64,000 nucleotides of DNA from Synechococcus sp. A10-1-5-1. GTDB lineage: Bacteria; Cyanobacteriota; Cyanobacteriia; PCC-6307; Cyanobiaceae. The translations under genes and the position numbers were made by a program. The stretch covers positions 124,001-188,000 of the forward strand of contig NZ_CP096032.1 in NCBI RefSeq assembly GCF_023115425.1, in the 5' to 3' direction. The notes under the pieces are model-generated. The model saw only the letters and a program-made list of their open reading frames with translations, searched no databases and was not told where the DNA came from. Positions 23,137 through 29,764 of this stretch are shown here, one piece after another; position 1 is the first letter of the stretch, and the number at the start of each line of letters is the position of its first letter.

Positions 23137-23736
23137 ATGTCAGAGCGTCCTCTGGTGCTGATCCATGGGCTGTGGGATACCCCTCGCCTCTTTGGGCGAC
23201 TCGAGCAGATGTTGCTGGAGCGCGAACCAGATTTAGAGCTCTTTGCTCCCCACTTGCCCCATCGCCTGGGGGCGACCCCGATTCGACAGCTCGCCCGTAA
23301 ACTGGACGGGGTGATTCGGGAGCGCTTTGGCAGCGAGACCTGCCTCGACCTGTTTGGGTTTTCGATGGGTGGGGTGATTGCCCGCACCTGGTTGCAGGAG
23401 TGGGGTGGGGCACGACGGACCCGCCGCTTTGTCTGTTTGGGGAGTCCTCAGCAGGGCACCTTGACGGCCCAGTTGATTCCGAGTTGGCCATTGGCGGGCA
23501 TTGCCGACATGAAGATCGGAAGCGCACTTCTGCGTGATCTGGATGTAGGGCGTGATCAATTGGATGGCTTGCAGTGCGTGAGTTTGTACAGCCGCACGGA
23601 CATCACGGTCTTTCCAGGTTGGCGAGCGGTTCTCCCCCAGGGGCCGCGGCAGGCCCTGCCCGTTTGGACGCATCGCCAACTGATCGCTAACCCGCGCGCC
23701 GCAGCGGTAGTGGCTGATGTTTTGCTCGCTCCTTAA
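23137..23736 (+). CDS. Alpha/beta hydrolase, lipase-like
   Basis: A 199-residue alpha/beta hydrolase. The N terminus has the oxyanion motif VLIHGLWDTP at 7-16. The nucleophile elbow is GFSMGG (serine near residue 75), followed by FVCLGSPQQGT, a lipase pattern. The acid is probably in SRTDITVFPG, and the histidine in WTHRQL near 181. It is a soluble protein without a signal. Homologues are often annotated as triacylglycerol lipase or permease-linked lipase, but the substrate is unproven. The ATG at 23137 follows folB by four bases. Confidence 0.82.
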   Translation: MSERPLVLIHGLWDTPRLFGRLEQMLLEREPDLELFAPHLPHRLGATPIRQLARKLDGVIRERFGSETCLDLFGFSMGGVIARTWLQEWGGARRTRRFVCLGSPQQGTLTAQLIPSWPLAGIADMKIGSALLRDLDVGRDQLDGLQCVSLYSRTDITVFPGWRAVLPQGPRQALPVWTHRQLIANPRAAAVVADVLLAP

Positions 23737-23812: not shown

Positions 23813-24517
23813 ATGTGCTTTTCAGCCTCGGCCAGTTTCACGGCATCAGCGGTGTTGATGCCGTTGGGCCTCTACAGCACCCATATCGCGCAGAAAACGG
23901 GCAAGCGTGACTATGTGCCCTTGGCACTGGTGCCCTTTTTCTTTGGGGTCCAACAACTTGTTGAAGGCCTGGAGTGGACAGCGATTGATAACGGTGGCGT
24001 GGAGCCGCTCAGTAGTTTGGCCGGCCTCGGCTTTCTCTTTTTCGCCTATTGCTTCTGGATGATCTGGATTCCATGGAGTGCCTGGTCAATCAGTCGAACG
24101 ACCGACTCCAAGGGACTGCAAAAGCGGCTCCGCTGGGTCGCGATTGTGGCAACGGTCCTCGGGGTTGCCTTCTACTTGCCCGTCTTGTTTGACCCACCGG
24201 CCCTTCAACCGGCAGTTCATAGCAATGGCCGTTTGCTCTACGACGTTTCCAACCTGCACAGCATTATCCATAACTTTGTGAACACCGAGCCCGTGGGTGA
24301 ACTGGCTTACTGGGGCTTCATTGTTCTCCCGTTGATCGCACTCTCGGATAAAGCCGTCAAGCTGTTTGGTGTCCTGATCTTTGTCTCGATCTTCCTGACC
24401 TGGTTGACCTATAGCGCCACATTTAATTCCGTTTGGTGTTTCTACTGCGCTGTGCTCTCCATCTACGTCATCTGGATTGTGAATCGGCCTGCCCTGCGCG
24501 CTGCATCAGGTCAGTAG
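23813..24517 (+). CDS. DUF6629 family membrane protein
   Basis: A 234-residue integral membrane protein with about seven hydrophobic segments. It begins with the family hallmark MCFSASASFTASAVLMPLG and ends with a TFNSVWCFYCA segment. The loops contain IHNFVNTEP, a possibly functional histidine. Nothing is known about the family's activity. The gene has its own 76-base upstream gap and is followed after 19 bases by another membrane-protein gene, then by a membrane-anchored hydrolase. Together they form a likely three-gene operon. The family name is certain, the function unknown. Confidence 0.8.
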   Translation: MCFSASASFTASAVLMPLGLYSTHIAQKTGKRDYVPLALVPFFFGVQQLVEGLEWTAIDNGGVEPLSSLAGLGFLFFAYCFWMIWIPWSAWSISRTTDSKGLQKRLRWVAIVATVLGVAFYLPVLFDPPALQPAVHSNGRLLYDVSNLHSIIHNFVNTEPVGELAYWGFIVLPLIALSDKAVKLFGVLIFVSIFLTWLTYSATFNSVWCFYCAVLSIYVIWIVNRPALRAASGQ

Positions 24518-24523
24518 ATCTTC

Positions 24524-24529
24524 AGGAGG
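24524..24529 (+). promoter_or_regulatory. Ribosome binding site of the 24537 gene
   Basis: A perfect AGGAGG lies seven bases before the GTG at 24537 and fixes that start. It is one of the few full Shine-Dalgarno matches in this window, and it suggests efficient independent initiation inside the operon. Confidence 0.8.
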
Positions 24530-24536
24530 TCTCAGC

Positions 24537-25082
24537 GTGGGGGTGCAAACAGCACTGGATGCTTTAGGCGGTTGGCTTGTTCAAGCTGATATCGGTTTGG
24601 GCTTGCTGCTCTTGGTGGGGCTTTCGATGTCTCTTTCCCATGTCTTTTCGCTTCTGGCCAATCGCCTCAATCGCCGCCAGATCATCATTCACCTGATTCT
24701 TGATGCTTTGATGCTTTCGGTGGCTTTTCTCTTAAGCAGCACCATTGATATGGTGCTGCTGGCCACAAGTGCTAGCGCCCATATCCATCCCAGTGCCTTC
24801 GTCAATGGGGTGGCTGTTTGCCTGCTTCCTGCAGTTTTTTATCTGTTCGTGGCAGCCCCCTACGTCGGTGAAACCATTGGCTTTGTGATCTGGGTGCTCA
24901 TGCATCTCAACGTGGTGACGTTGTTGCATGCGCGCTTCGACTTGCCCTATGGCCAAGCGCTGCTCCTGGCGACGCCTGGATATGCCGTGGCTGTGGTGTT
25001 GGTCTGGTTGCTCTTTCGCCAAAGCTGGCAGGCGGGATACAGCACCCTGGCCTCTCAACTCTCCGATGCCCATGGGTCTTGA
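24537..25082 (+). CDS. Membrane protein of about four helices, function unknown
   Basis: A 181-residue protein with about four hydrophobic segments: around residues 18-40 (LGLLLLVGLSMSLSHVF), 45-70, 85-125 and 135-160. Between helices lie the basic NRLNRRQIIIH and a histidine-containing ASAHIHPSAF. There is no domain that I know. The start is a GTG with a perfect ribosome binding site. It is sandwiched between the DUF6629 gene and the membrane hydrolase with gaps of 19 and 3 bases, so it probably works with them in the membrane. The function is unknown. Confidence 0.65.
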   Translation: MGVQTALDALGGWLVQADIGLGLLLLVGLSMSLSHVFSLLANRLNRRQIIIHLILDALMLSVAFLLSSTIDMVLLATSASAHIHPSAFVNGVAVCLLPAVFYLFVAAPYVGETIGFVIWVLMHLNVVTLLHARFDLPYGQALLLATPGYAVAVVLVWLLFRQSWQAGYSTLASQLSDAHGS

Positions 25083-25085
25083 GTC

Positions 25086-26216
25086 ATGAACCCCAGGTCC
25101 GAGGCCGGTCCCATGCGCCCTAGGGCCAATGAAGCCGCAATTCAGGTGCAGCAGCACAGTCTGCGCTCCAGGCTCGGACTTGTCGTCTTGGTGTTGGCCG
25201 TTGGCCTGGGGGTGAGTTGGTTTGGTGTGGGCCATGTCCTTTTGGCCCTGCGATCGATCTTTGACTGGACGGACATCAGCCTGCTGTTGCGCTGGTCTGG
25301 CCTGTTGCTCTTGGTGTTAATCCCGACGGCTGGGATCTATTCGCTGGTCACGCAATTTGCCTTTTGGGAGGGCTGGTTGGATGGACTCCCTGAACCAACG
25401 GTCCTTTTCCCCGAGACTCCTGCAGCGAAGGAGCACCGCTGCTTTGTGGTCTACCTCGATGGGATCCACCAGTTGGAGCGGGATCATCCGCCAAGGGTCT
25501 CAGCCTTTCTTCAACTCCTGGATCAGCAGCTCAATGGCTCCACCCGACTGGTGAAGGGGTTAGAGGCCTACACCGTTCTGCCCGTGGCCCTTGCCCAAGA
25601 CCTCGGTAGTGCCTGGTTCTGGCGCCGATTGTTTGCGTTGCAAGAAGAGCATCCCAACGGCTGGATCCAGTTGCTGGCCGCTGTCTTGGTTCAAGCCAAC
25701 AACGTCATCAAGGTTGGGATTTCATCGGATCATCGCTACGGCCCGATCATGAACTACGAGCTCTCCCTCAAGATTGCGTTGCGCTTGGGAGAGGTCGGCT
25801 TCAGGCCGGATCAGGGCCAACGGGTCGTTCTTGTGGGATATAGCGGTGGAGCAGAGATGGCGATGGGGGTGGCGGAGTACCTGCGTCGCATTTGCCGGGC
25901 ACCGGTGAGCATCGTCAGCTTCTGTGGCGTGTTCAGTGGCAACCAACTGTTGAACCAGCTTTCGAAAATCACGATGATTGTTGGCAGTCGTGACCCAGTG
26001 GCGGCCTTTGGTCGCATTGCCTATCCGGGGCGATCGCCGTTGCTTCCCCTCTCCAATTGGAATCGAGCGCTGAAGTGCTCCTGCATCGAACGGCGCGAGA
26101 TTGACGGGATGAACCACAATGGTCTGAAGGGACCGTTTGCCGAATTGCATCGGCAGGATGTCGTCCAGCAGATCGTTCTGGCGATTGAGTCAGAGGAGGA
26201 GGGCCTGCTGGGCTAA
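25086..26216 (+). CDS. Membrane-anchored alpha/beta hydrolase-like protein
   Basis: A 376-residue protein. Two membrane helices lie near the N terminus (about 30-55 and 68-95), after a polar tail. The soluble part has a serine-hydrolase pattern: LVGYSGGAEMAMGVAE, with the serine in GYSGG, an aspartate in VGSRDPVAAFG, and a histidine in DGMNHNGLKG. This triad order is what an alpha/beta hydrolase would show; a lipase or esterase at the membrane surface is the best guess. It is the last gene of the DUF6629 cluster. Its final 27 bases overlap the convergent gene at 26190. Confidence 0.72.
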   Translation: MNPRSEAGPMRPRANEAAIQVQQHSLRSRLGLVVLVLAVGLGVSWFGVGHVLLALRSIFDWTDISLLLRWSGLLLLVLIPTAGIYSLVTQFAFWEGWLDGLPEPTVLFPETPAAKEHRCFVVYLDGIHQLERDHPPRVSAFLQLLDQQLNGSTRLVKGLEAYTVLPVALAQDLGSAWFWRRLFALQEEHPNGWIQLLAAVLVQANNVIKVGISSDHRYGPIMNYELSLKIALRLGEVGFRPDQGQRVVLVGYSGGAEMAMGVAEYLRRICRAPVSIVSFCGVFSGNQLLNQLSKITMIVGSRDPVAAFGRIAYPGRSPLLPLSNWNRALKCSCIERREIDGMNHNGLKGPFAELHRQDVVQQIVLAIESEEEGLLG

Positions 26217-27611
26217 GCGGAACGGACTGCTCTGGGGTTGGCAGGCTTTCAGGCGGCGTTGAGCATCCCGCCTGGTCTCGCCAAAACAAAATCCGTCGTG
26301 GGGCAAAGCCGTGATCGCTTGGCAGTAGCGCTGCAGCGCCCTTTGTTGAAACTCATGCTGCGGGTTCAGCTGCTGTTGCAACCGCCGGGCCCGATGCAGC
26401 AGCCGTTCGCGCCAGATGCCGCCGAGCAGGCAGGGAAAGAGATCGCAGCGTCCATCCAAGGCCTGTTGCAACACCGCTGAGCTATCGATGCAGAACCCCA
26501 AGGCGCCATAGCCCCCAAGCCAGAGGCCATCGTCTTCGCTCTCCTGGTTATGGATCAACGCCACGAGCTCGCAGAGATCCATGACGTCCAGGAGACGTTC
26601 ACCCTCGAACGGCTCACCGAAGTAGCGGATTGTTCCATTATCACGGTCGTTTTGCCAGGGACGATGCAGATCGTTCAGCGCTTCCCAACCGCAAAGCCCC
26701 TCTGTTCCCTGGTAGTACTGCAGGCGAAGGAGATCCTCGCCTTTTCGCCATTCCAGCTCCAGGCAGCTGTGGGGGAGCAAGCTTTGAATCTCCTGCCCGT
26801 CGTCCCCTAAGAGCCCCGTACGGATGGGCAATGCCAAAGGCACCTGACTCCAGCCTGGCGTGGGTTGACCTGACTTCGGCAGACTTGCACCCAGGCCAAA
26901 ACTGGCCACGCTCGCGCGCAACTGAGCACGCAGCATCCAGCCGCTTTGCTGCAACTGCTCGAACCAGCTCCTGCAGCTGCTCGCTCCATCGATCTGCCAT
27001 GGAACGCCCCCCAGTCCATTGGCGGAGAGACGATTCAGGACGCGGGCGGTCAGGGCATTGCGTTGCCGTTCGCCAGCTGACTGTTCATGGTTGAGACCAA
27101 TGTTGTGCCAGATCAGCCCACCGCTCAAGTGCCCGGCATCCGCGGAGTCTCCGTTGGCTTCTGCTGGATCTGAGAGTCCGGGATCAAGCCGTAACAGTTG
27201 CTCCAGGCTGGTGGGGAGGTTGACCTCTGGTGCCCCACGCCAACGCCCAATCGCCCCGCTCTCCTCCGGCAAGAGGTGGGGGAGTCCATCGGCCACAGCC
27301 CCGAGCAGGGCTGGAGTCAGCAATTCGCGCTCCACGAGTCCTCCAAGGGACTGAACCCGTTGCGGTAAGTCCGCTGGAGCTAACTTCCACCCCTTGGGCA
27401 GAAGCCAGAGCAGTGGCAGCAAGCGGGGCCTGTGGAGCTGGTGCGCCAAGCGTTTGAGCCAATCCGATCGGGTCAAACCGGAGCGAAAGACGCTTTGCTC
27501 GAGGGCTTCTTCAAAGGCGAGCAGGGGAACGCCGCAGGTCCACTCCGGATCCAGTTGCAGAGGATCGGTGACGGAGAAGAGGGGAGAGCCAGGAGCCATG
27601 TTGCGGCCCAT
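26190..27611 (-). CDS. Conserved-looking protein of unknown function
   Basis: A 473-residue soluble protein with the start set to the ATG at 27611; the ATG at 27599 is also possible, and the longer frame upstream enters the M3 peptidase gene. It is rich in Leu, Gln and Trp. The N-terminal half reads as helices. The C-terminal half carries CLELEWRKGEDLLRLQYYQG, LCELVALIHNQESEDD and FCIDSSAVLQQALDG. There are no membrane segments and no known motif. It is downstream of the M3 peptidase by 26 bases and likely co-transcribed with it. I do not recognise it. Confidence 0.6.
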   Translation of the reverse strand: MGRNMAPGSPLFSVTDPLQLDPEWTCGVPLLAFEEALEQSVFRSGLTRSDWLKRLAHQLHRPRLLPLLWLLPKGWKLAPADLPQRVQSLGGLVERELLTPALLGAVADGLPHLLPEESGAIGRWRGAPEVNLPTSLEQLLRLDPGLSDPAEANGDSADAGHLSGGLIWHNIGLNHEQSAGERQRNALTARVLNRLSANGLGGVPWQIDGASSCRSWFEQLQQSGWMLRAQLRASVASFGLGASLPKSGQPTPGWSQVPLALPIRTGLLGDDGQEIQSLLPHSCLELEWRKGEDLLRLQYYQGTEGLCGWEALNDLHRPWQNDRDNGTIRYFGEPFEGERLLDVMDLCELVALIHNQESEDDGLWLGGYGALGFCIDSSAVLQQALDGRCDLFPCLLGGIWRERLLHRARRLQQQLNPQHEFQQRALQRYCQAITALPHDGFCFGETRRDAQRRLKACQPQSSPFRLAQQALLL

Positions 27612-27637
27612 CTCCCCCCATCCTGCAGAGGCTCGTC

Positions 27638-29764
27638 CTAGACGGCTACCAGGCCGGAGTGACGGATCAGGGCATCGCTTCTGGGTTGACGACCACGGAA
27701 GCACTCAAACACCTGTTTGGGATCGAGGCTTCCCCCCAGGCTGAGGACCGTGTTTCGGAAGCGGCGACCCGTTTCGCGAATTTGCTCCTCGTTCTCCAGT
27801 CCAACCTCTTCAAAGGCGCCAAAGGCGTCGGCACTCAAGACCTCCGCCCACTTGTAGGAGTAGTACCCGGCTGCATAGCCCCCCGCAAAAATGTGACCGA
27901 AGGCGCAGAGGAAGGCGTCCTCGTCGATGGGGGTTAACACGGATGTGGTGGTGGCAATCTCTCGCCTGAGAGCCTCTGGACTCACGCCGGAGTGAGGTTG
28001 CCATTGGCTGTGCAAGCGCAAGTCCACCAGGGCAAAGTGCACCTGCCGCAGGGTCGCCGAACCCCCCATGAAGGTTCGCGCGGACAGCAACTTGGTGTAC
28101 TCAGCCTCCGGTAGGGGTTCACCGGTCTTCCAGTGCCGGGCCATCCCCATCAAGGTGGCGCGGTCGTAGCACCAGTTCTCCATGAACTGGCTGGGCAGCT
28201 CAACGGCGTCCCACTCGACACCATTGATGCCGGCGGCTTGAGGGTGCTCCACGCTGGTGAGCATGTGCTGGAGGCCATGCCCGAATTCGTGGAAGAGGGT
28301 TTCGACCTCGTCAAAGGTCATCAGGCTCGGTGTGTCCCCGACTGGTGCACTCTGGTTGCAGATCAGGTAGGCCACCGGCAGGACCGAGCTGCCGTCATCG
28401 CGCTTGGAGCGCACAAGGCATTCATCCATCCAGGCTCCGCCACGCTTTGTCCCGGGACGGCTGTAGGGATCGAGGTAGAACCCGGCGATGGCCTCGCCCT
28501 GCTCCAGGATTCGGAAGAAACGCACATCCGGATGCCAGATCGGCGCGTCCCCATCGGCCGCTTCGATACTGATCCCGAACAGCCGTTCGCTCAGGGCAAA
28601 GAGCCCATCGAGGACCTGGGGTAGAGGGAACCAGGGGCGAAGGGCTTCGCTGTCGAGCTCGAAACTCTCCTGGCGAAGAATCTCAGACCAGTAACTGATG
28701 TCCCAGGCCTGGAGCTCCGCTGCCTCAGAAGCCCCATGGGCTTGGGCGCAGGCGGCCAGGGCCTGTAATTCCCGTTGCGCGATCGGATAGGCCGCGCTGC
28801 GCAGGTCCTCCAGTAGCGCTTCGACCGACTGCTCAGAGTCGGCCATTTTTGAGGCAATGCTGAGCTCCGCCCAGTTGGCAAATCCCAGACGCTCAGCCTG
28901 TTGCCGTCGCAGGGTCAGGATCTCTTCGATCAAGGGCCAGTTGTTGAGATCGCTGCCGTTCTGACCCGATGCCCTGCTGATGTGGGCCTTGTAGACCTGC
29001 TCCCGCAGGTCACGCCTGCGGCTGTATTTCATGAACGGGACATAGCGAGGCATGTCGAGCCCCATGAGCCATGGACCCTCCTCGGCGCTGGCGCTCTGAT
29101 CACCGGCCTGGCGGGCCGATTGGGCTAGCTGCTCCAGCAGGCTCGCCGGTAGTCCTATGACCTGGTCGGCTTCGGTTAGGCGCAGGGTCCAGTTGTTGGT
29201 GGCATCCAGAACGTGGTTACCGAAGCGGGTCGAGAGCTCAGCCAAGGTCTGACTGGTGGCGTTAAAGGCCTCTTTAGTGGCTCCACTTAGACCGACACCA
29301 CGCAGCTGCATGTCCCGCAGTTCTGCGTCCAGAATTCGTTGTTGCGTGCCATCGAGTTCTGATCGCCGTTCCTGCAGCTGCTTGAGGGCCCGATAGATCA
29401 CCTGGCTTTGGCCAGCGCGGTTGCCGAATTGAACAACCGCCGCCTGCTGGCTGGCATGGGCATCGCGCAGTTCAGGGCTGTTGCAGACCCCATTCAGGTG
29501 ACTGACCACACCCCAGCTCCAACGCAACCGTTCACCGAGTCGCTGGAGGGGAGCGATGACGTCGTTCCAGCTGAGTGCCAGGTCCTGATCCAGCTTCTGG
29601 CTTAGGGCTTCCTCCAGTGCTCCCAGCTCAGAGTCCAGGGACTGCATCAGTCCGGGGATGTGTTCGCTGACAGCCTCGGGAGTGATGGCCTCGAAGTTCG
29701 GCAGCCCCTCGCCGCGGAGGATCTCCGGCCGAGTGGTGGCGGTGGCGGCGCTGCTTACAGTCAT
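27638..29764 (-). CDS. M3-family oligopeptidase (oligopeptidase A-like)
   Basis: A 708-residue zinc metallopeptidase of the M3 family (PrlC/oligopeptidase A and thimet relatives) that degrades short peptides in the cytosol. The zinc motif HEFGH is at residues 492-496, within VETLFHEFGHGLQHML, and the third ligand glutamate follows in INGVEWDAVELPSQFMENW. The C-terminal FAGGYAAGYYSYKWAEV is the substrate-binding signature. The length is standard. It starts at the ATG at 29764 and runs toward the unknown gene at 26190. Confidence 0.94.
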   Translation of the reverse strand: MTVSSAATATTRPEILRGEGLPNFEAITPEAVSEHIPGLMQSLDSELGALEEALSQKLDQDLALSWNDVIAPLQRLGERLRWSWGVVSHLNGVCNSPELRDAHASQQAAVVQFGNRAGQSQVIYRALKQLQERRSELDGTQQRILDAELRDMQLRGVGLSGATKEAFNATSQTLAELSTRFGNHVLDATNNWTLRLTEADQVIGLPASLLEQLAQSARQAGDQSASAEEGPWLMGLDMPRYVPFMKYSRRRDLREQVYKAHISRASGQNGSDLNNWPLIEEILTLRRQQAERLGFANWAELSIASKMADSEQSVEALLEDLRSAAYPIAQRELQALAACAQAHGASEAAELQAWDISYWSEILRQESFELDSEALRPWFPLPQVLDGLFALSERLFGISIEAADGDAPIWHPDVRFFRILEQGEAIAGFYLDPYSRPGTKRGGAWMDECLVRSKRDDGSSVLPVAYLICNQSAPVGDTPSLMTFDEVETLFHEFGHGLQHMLTSVEHPQAAGINGVEWDAVELPSQFMENWCYDRATLMGMARHWKTGEPLPEAEYTKLLSARTFMGGSATLRQVHFALVDLRLHSQWQPHSGVSPEALRREIATTTSVLTPIDEDAFLCAFGHIFAGGYAAGYYSYKWAEVLSADAFGAFEEVGLENEEQIRETGRRFRNTVLSLGGSLDPKQVFECFRGRQPRSDALIRHSGLVAV

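Follow-up and report, generated by a model that had tools for sequence, protein, structure and literature searches.

The conserved unit at this locus is a pair of adjacent genes, genes 2 and 3, and not a fixed three-gene complex. Gene 2 (positions 24537..25082, forward strand, GTG start, 181 aa) encodes an integral membrane protein, and its partner, gene 3 (25086..26216, same strand, ATG start, 376 aa), predicts a membrane-anchored serine hydrolase. Gene 1 (23813..24517, same strand, ATG start, 234 aa), which encodes a DUF6629 (PF20334) protein, is an accessory of one clade and an optional neighbour of the pair. Positions are those of the window, the whole stretch of 64,000 nucleotides that was analysed, which comes from a 2.40 Mb genome represented by a single contig. 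The preliminary description had taken the three genes for a three-gene membrane complex. The part concerning genes 2 and 3 stands, as a two-gene unit, but the complex is recast here as a two-protein unit with an accessory because the linkage of DUF6629 holds for the close clade only.

The three genes were originally described as lying on the plus strand with gaps of 19 bases (genes 1 and 2) and 3 bases (genes 2 and 3), and the ORF coordinates agree. The perfect AGGAGG reported ahead of gene 2 is present on the forward strand at 24524..24529, 7 bases 5′ of the GTG, and is the gene 2 ribosome-binding site. The start of gene 3 is uncertain by about 9 residues, with an ATG at 25086 and another at 25113. 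In comparison with a close relative, dN/dS is 0.031 for gene 1, 0.074 for gene 2 and 0.075 for gene 3, and the range across the three genes is 0.03–0.08 against L047 and 0.05–0.16 against L003. All three are therefore real, constrained genes under strong purifying selection. A promoter and terminator scan returned no promoters and 5 terminator-like sites, with 4.6 expected. None of the three gene products exceeds a family cut-off in NCBIfam, and those of genes 2 and 3 have no Pfam family above cut-off. A phage origin was rejected, as there was no match in the phage collection.

In a survey of the family (151 genomes), gene 3 was detected at 33 places in 32 genomes. Gene 2 was found in 28 genomes and every match adjoins gene 3 (28/28), the matched stretches being separated by −10 to 155 bases. 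The remaining 5 gene 3 places (G072, G099, G084, G134 and the second place of G051) have a distant gene 2 relative directly upstream, so that a gene 2 relative is adjacent at 33/33 places when distant relatives, found with a profile that includes some of those same sequences, are counted. The linkage proposed for close relatives thus holds for genes 2 and 3, but fails for DUF6629 outside the close clade. L030 and L036 show apparent gene 2–gene 3 fusions, but these, like the frames of 1141–1145 aa in L033 and L034, were left out of the fusion count. Their N-terminal parts are out-of-frame translations, since gene 2 sits in another frame.

Relatives of gene 3 were found in 47 of 386 genomes in a profile search of the phylum, and 20 loci outside the family, in other cyanobacteria, were examined. 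Using a gene 2 profile built from the family only, with these loci themselves excluded, gene 2 was found joined in frame to gene 3 at 12 of the 20 (L081–L091 and L093) and as a separate neighbour of gene 3 at a further 5 (L094–L098), with E values of 3e-34 to 5e-15 at the fused and neighbouring loci. No gene 2 relative was found at the other three (L079, L080 and L092). Eleven of the 12 fusions carry approximately 600 extra residues, while L093, of 658 aa, consists of gene 2 and gene 3 only.

Gene 3 was also matched in 13 of 72,556 plasmid records. In four of these, from three rhizobiales (S. fredii NGR234, S. meliloti GR4 and Microvirga sp. VF16) and one actinomycete (Nonomuraea gerenzanensis), a UDP-glycosyltransferase-type gene is followed by a gene 2 relative (E 7e-7 to 0.0036) and then gene 3 (L124 4353-6935, L125 5010-6887, L127 4929-6656 and L129 4926-6656). 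The glycosyltransferase was assigned by Pfam for the Microvirga copy only, and the other three are relatives of that copy by blastp. The glycosyltransferases of the rhizobial and actinomycete runs have 74–92% identity to the Microvirga copy, and the sharing of the run at this level suggests horizontal transfer. Many S. meliloti copies of gene 3 match only part of the query. One such partial copy (L126 6701-7645) no longer has the catalytic Ser or Asp and looks decayed.

The gene 3 product carries the motifs of a catalytic triad, Ser253 in GYSGG, Asp303 in GSRDPV and His344 in MNHNG. Of 46 homologues, 45 retain all three residues and only the apparently decayed L126 does not; the residues are also invariant in two other sets (21/21 and 28/28 sequences), though the three sets overlap. 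Both the Ser-Asp-His triad noticed at the outset and the expected invariance of the GYSGG serine, seen in all members of the set of 21, are thereby confirmed. As the triad is retained in nearly every homologue, gene 3 very probably encodes an active membrane-anchored serine hydrolase. Four further residues, N206, D215, R217 and Y218, form a second invariant set (46/46). Hydropathy predicts two N-terminal helices, at about residues 31–53 and 66–90, followed by the catalytic domain. Sub-threshold Pfam matches among gene 3 relatives are mostly to alpha/beta-hydrolase families, such as Thioesterase (7 of 28), Lipase_3 (5 of 28) and Abhydrolase_6 (3 of 28), which have one common fold. Across the 28 members no Pfam hydrolase family was significant or above its curated cut-off (best E 0.0082), and a search of PDB sequences gave no significant match (best E 0.63). 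A structure model from a two-sequence alignment (pLDDT 38.8) places the end of a strand just before Ser253, but is too weak to count.

The gene 2 product had been called a four-helix protein. Its hydropathy profile does show four stretches, but the third (residues 94–129) spans both sides of an invariant Pro108 and is long enough for two helices, and the number is four or, more probably, five. Two fused gene 2 relatives match the Yip1 family (PF04893) over nearly the whole profile (E 9e-6 and 1.8e-4), the better covering positions 6–165 of 173. Its score of 26.1 bits falls short of the gathering cut-off of 28.6. With E values up to 0.1 allowed, only three of 31 gene 2 members match Yip1, and the window protein itself does not. 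In 3 of 10 genomes scanned (G311, G385 and G161) the top-scoring Yip1 match falls within a fused frame. The only Yip1 match in the window genome (E 0.01) is another gene. Gene 2 is called Yip1-like here, and not Yip1, because its relatives score below the cut-off and the window protein has no match. A PDB profile search with gene 2 returned nothing useful.

The extension behind gene 3 is a C-terminal module of 600 aa with invariant His and Cys residues (9 sequences), typified by L081 8812-10632 and its relatives, which are either fused behind gene 3 or free-standing. None of 9 members exceeds a Pfam cut-off, and a PDB profile search produced nothing useful. A search of 28 genomes found the module in 11, in some cases as a protein of its own, and it is absent from the window genome; it may be an enzyme in its own right. 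Among three free-standing copies, L132 has a signal peptide-like start, L130 an N-terminal helix and L131 neither. The basic residues of gene 3 suggest that its catalytic domain is cytosolic, but this pattern conflicts with the copies of the module that stand behind an apparent signal peptide or an N-terminal helix.

Gene 1 scores 44.5 bits against DUF6629 with a cut-off of 27, in agreement with its initial assignment. About seven hydrophobic helices are predicted by hydropathy, and a low-confidence structure model (two-sequence alignment, pLDDT 39.5) contains helices only. The invariant residues include Cys2, Gln47-Gln48, Glu51, Trp55 and Trp208-Cys209. CREST-type membrane hydrolases have conserved metal-binding histidines, and gene 1 was rejected as a member of this type, there being no invariant His among 35 invariant columns in 11 proteins.

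Upstream of gene 1, a small alpha/beta hydrolase gene (23137..23736, forward strand; Palm_thioest 27.0 bits, cut-off 26.8) was considered as a fourth member and rejected. It is found in 129 of the 151 family genomes, some of them smaller than 2 Mb, and is therefore not specific to the cluster, most of those genomes lacking the pair. A convergent gene of 504 aa with no Pfam match (26190..27704, reverse strand) overlaps the tail of gene 3 and is not co-transcribed with the pair; its relatives adjoin the pair in several flanking contexts. In the closest genomes the flanking order is conserved, and comprises what we take to be a ROK kinase, proA, folB and a small lipase. Ten neighbouring genes picked from the examined loci were scanned. 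Those directly 3′ of the gene 3 frame include a diacylglycerol-kinase-type gene (L079) and BrkB-family genes (L081 and L088). Other neighbours in the scan (MatE, SDR, metallophosphoesterase, FkbM methyltransferase, T5orf172 and one unmatched) have no shared theme, and none of the ten is shared across all lineages.

We give roughly an even chance to a reading in which genes 2 and 3 specify a two-protein membrane enzyme, an ester or thioester hydrolase that acts on a lipid-like substrate with the help of a scaffold partner, to which DUF6629 was added in one clade. The gene 3 product would be a serine alpha/beta-hydrolase tethered by its two N-terminal helices, in which Ser253, activated by His344 and Asp303, would attack an ester or thioester bond, and the reaction would run via an acyl-enzyme. 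The helical, Yip1-like gene 2 product would bind it within the membrane, probably as an anchor or as a scaffold that presents the substrate, and gene 1 would have joined as an accessory in the membrane that has no catalytic part. As for the substrate, a lipid of the membrane or a lipid-like ester is most likely; this is proposed because of the weak family matches together with the scattered diacylglycerol-kinase-type and BrkB neighbours and the glycosyltransferase at four loci.

A three-protein complex in which DUF6629 is an indispensable subunit is unlikely. DUF6629 is present in 39 of the 151 family genomes, as 22 close copies and 17 distant ones (32–40% identity) that are located elsewhere and not at the pair. 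All 22 close copies lie within 14–57 bases of a gene 2 match, that of G047 being split over two frames, and an obligatory role would fit this, as well as the fact that gene 1 shows the strongest constraint among the three genes. It would also fit the clustering of DUF6629 on a gene 3 tree of 30 sequences, where 4 changes are needed compared with 7.9 in shuffles, though several forks of that tree are open and long branches are flagged. However, 10 of the 32 genomes with gene 3 have no DUF6629 gene beside the pair, and the close copy of G082 is reduced to a remnant of its end (31 residues matched) beside an intact gene 2 and gene 3. Furthermore, a search of 373 genomes detected DUF6629 in 22, and in the 5 that are outside the family it is never next to gene 3.

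The catalytic assignment of gene 3 also has competitors. The triad by itself does not determine which reaction is catalysed, and it might serve a membrane peptidase for peptide cleavage or an acyltransferase for transfer to a second acceptor. Simple hydrolysis leaves the second invariant set of residues unexplained, and the His/Cys module fused behind gene 3 in many relatives would suit this alternative, but families of thioesterases and lipases account for most of the weak Pfam matches, and nothing in this analysis points to peptides; we consider it unlikely. Membership of a toxin-type family, Ntox30, is hardly credible. Ntox30 matches 3 of 28 members, rhizobial relatives among them, with a best E of 4.7e-4, but one score seen is 18.4 bits, below the cut-off of 25, the match covers only 46 residues (251–296 of the Microvirga protein), and Ntox30 is not listed for the window protein. 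An alpha/beta-hydrolase triad accounts better for the whole domain. It is very improbable, given the fusions, that genes 2 and 3 are neighbours merely by descent and have no common role. The conserved flanking order in the closest genomes would be expected from inherited synteny, but the pair is kept amid several different sets of flanking genes, with other gene orders and strands, as one polypeptide and in other phyla.

Neither the gene 2–gene 3 system nor any paper on DUF6629 was found in the open-licence literature. PMC11237479, which falls under the topic of Yip1, cyanobacteria and hydrolases, does not concern the system in the part of it that was available. The pair could perhaps, although this is doubtful, be a previously undescribed membrane system that crosses phyla, in which a serine acyl-hydrolase usually has a Yip1-like protein as its partner, the two having later been fused, also with the 600-aa His/Cys module, in other cyanobacteria. 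If so, the system would remodel membrane lipid and would tie the Yip1 fold to lipid chemistry in bacteria. The fusions and the invariant triad lead to a testable statement, namely that genes 2 and 3 cooperate and that Ser253 is catalytic. The Yip1 fold functions in vesicle traffic in eukaryotes, and no eukaryotic member is known to be linked to a specific enzymatic activity. Should gene 2 prove to be Yip1-like, the pair would be a bacterial case of a Yip1-type protein with such a link.

Within DUF6629, the link to the hydrolase pair is confined to the clade of gene 1. Gene 2, with four to five predicted helices, can be compared with YIPF proteins, which have five (PMC8327215), and its relatives align along nearly the whole Yip1 profile but score under the Pfam cut-off. 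Like members of the alpha/beta-hydrolase superfamily (of the thioesterase, class 3 lipase and palmitoyl-thioesterase types), the gene 3 product has a nucleophile elbow, GYSGG, followed by Asp and then His in the usual order. Unlike them, it has no significant profile match, which leaves the assignment at the level of motifs. It also differs in having two N-terminal membrane helices, a signature of its own, YLDGI ... SSDxRYGP, and a Yip1-like protein as partner or fused domain.
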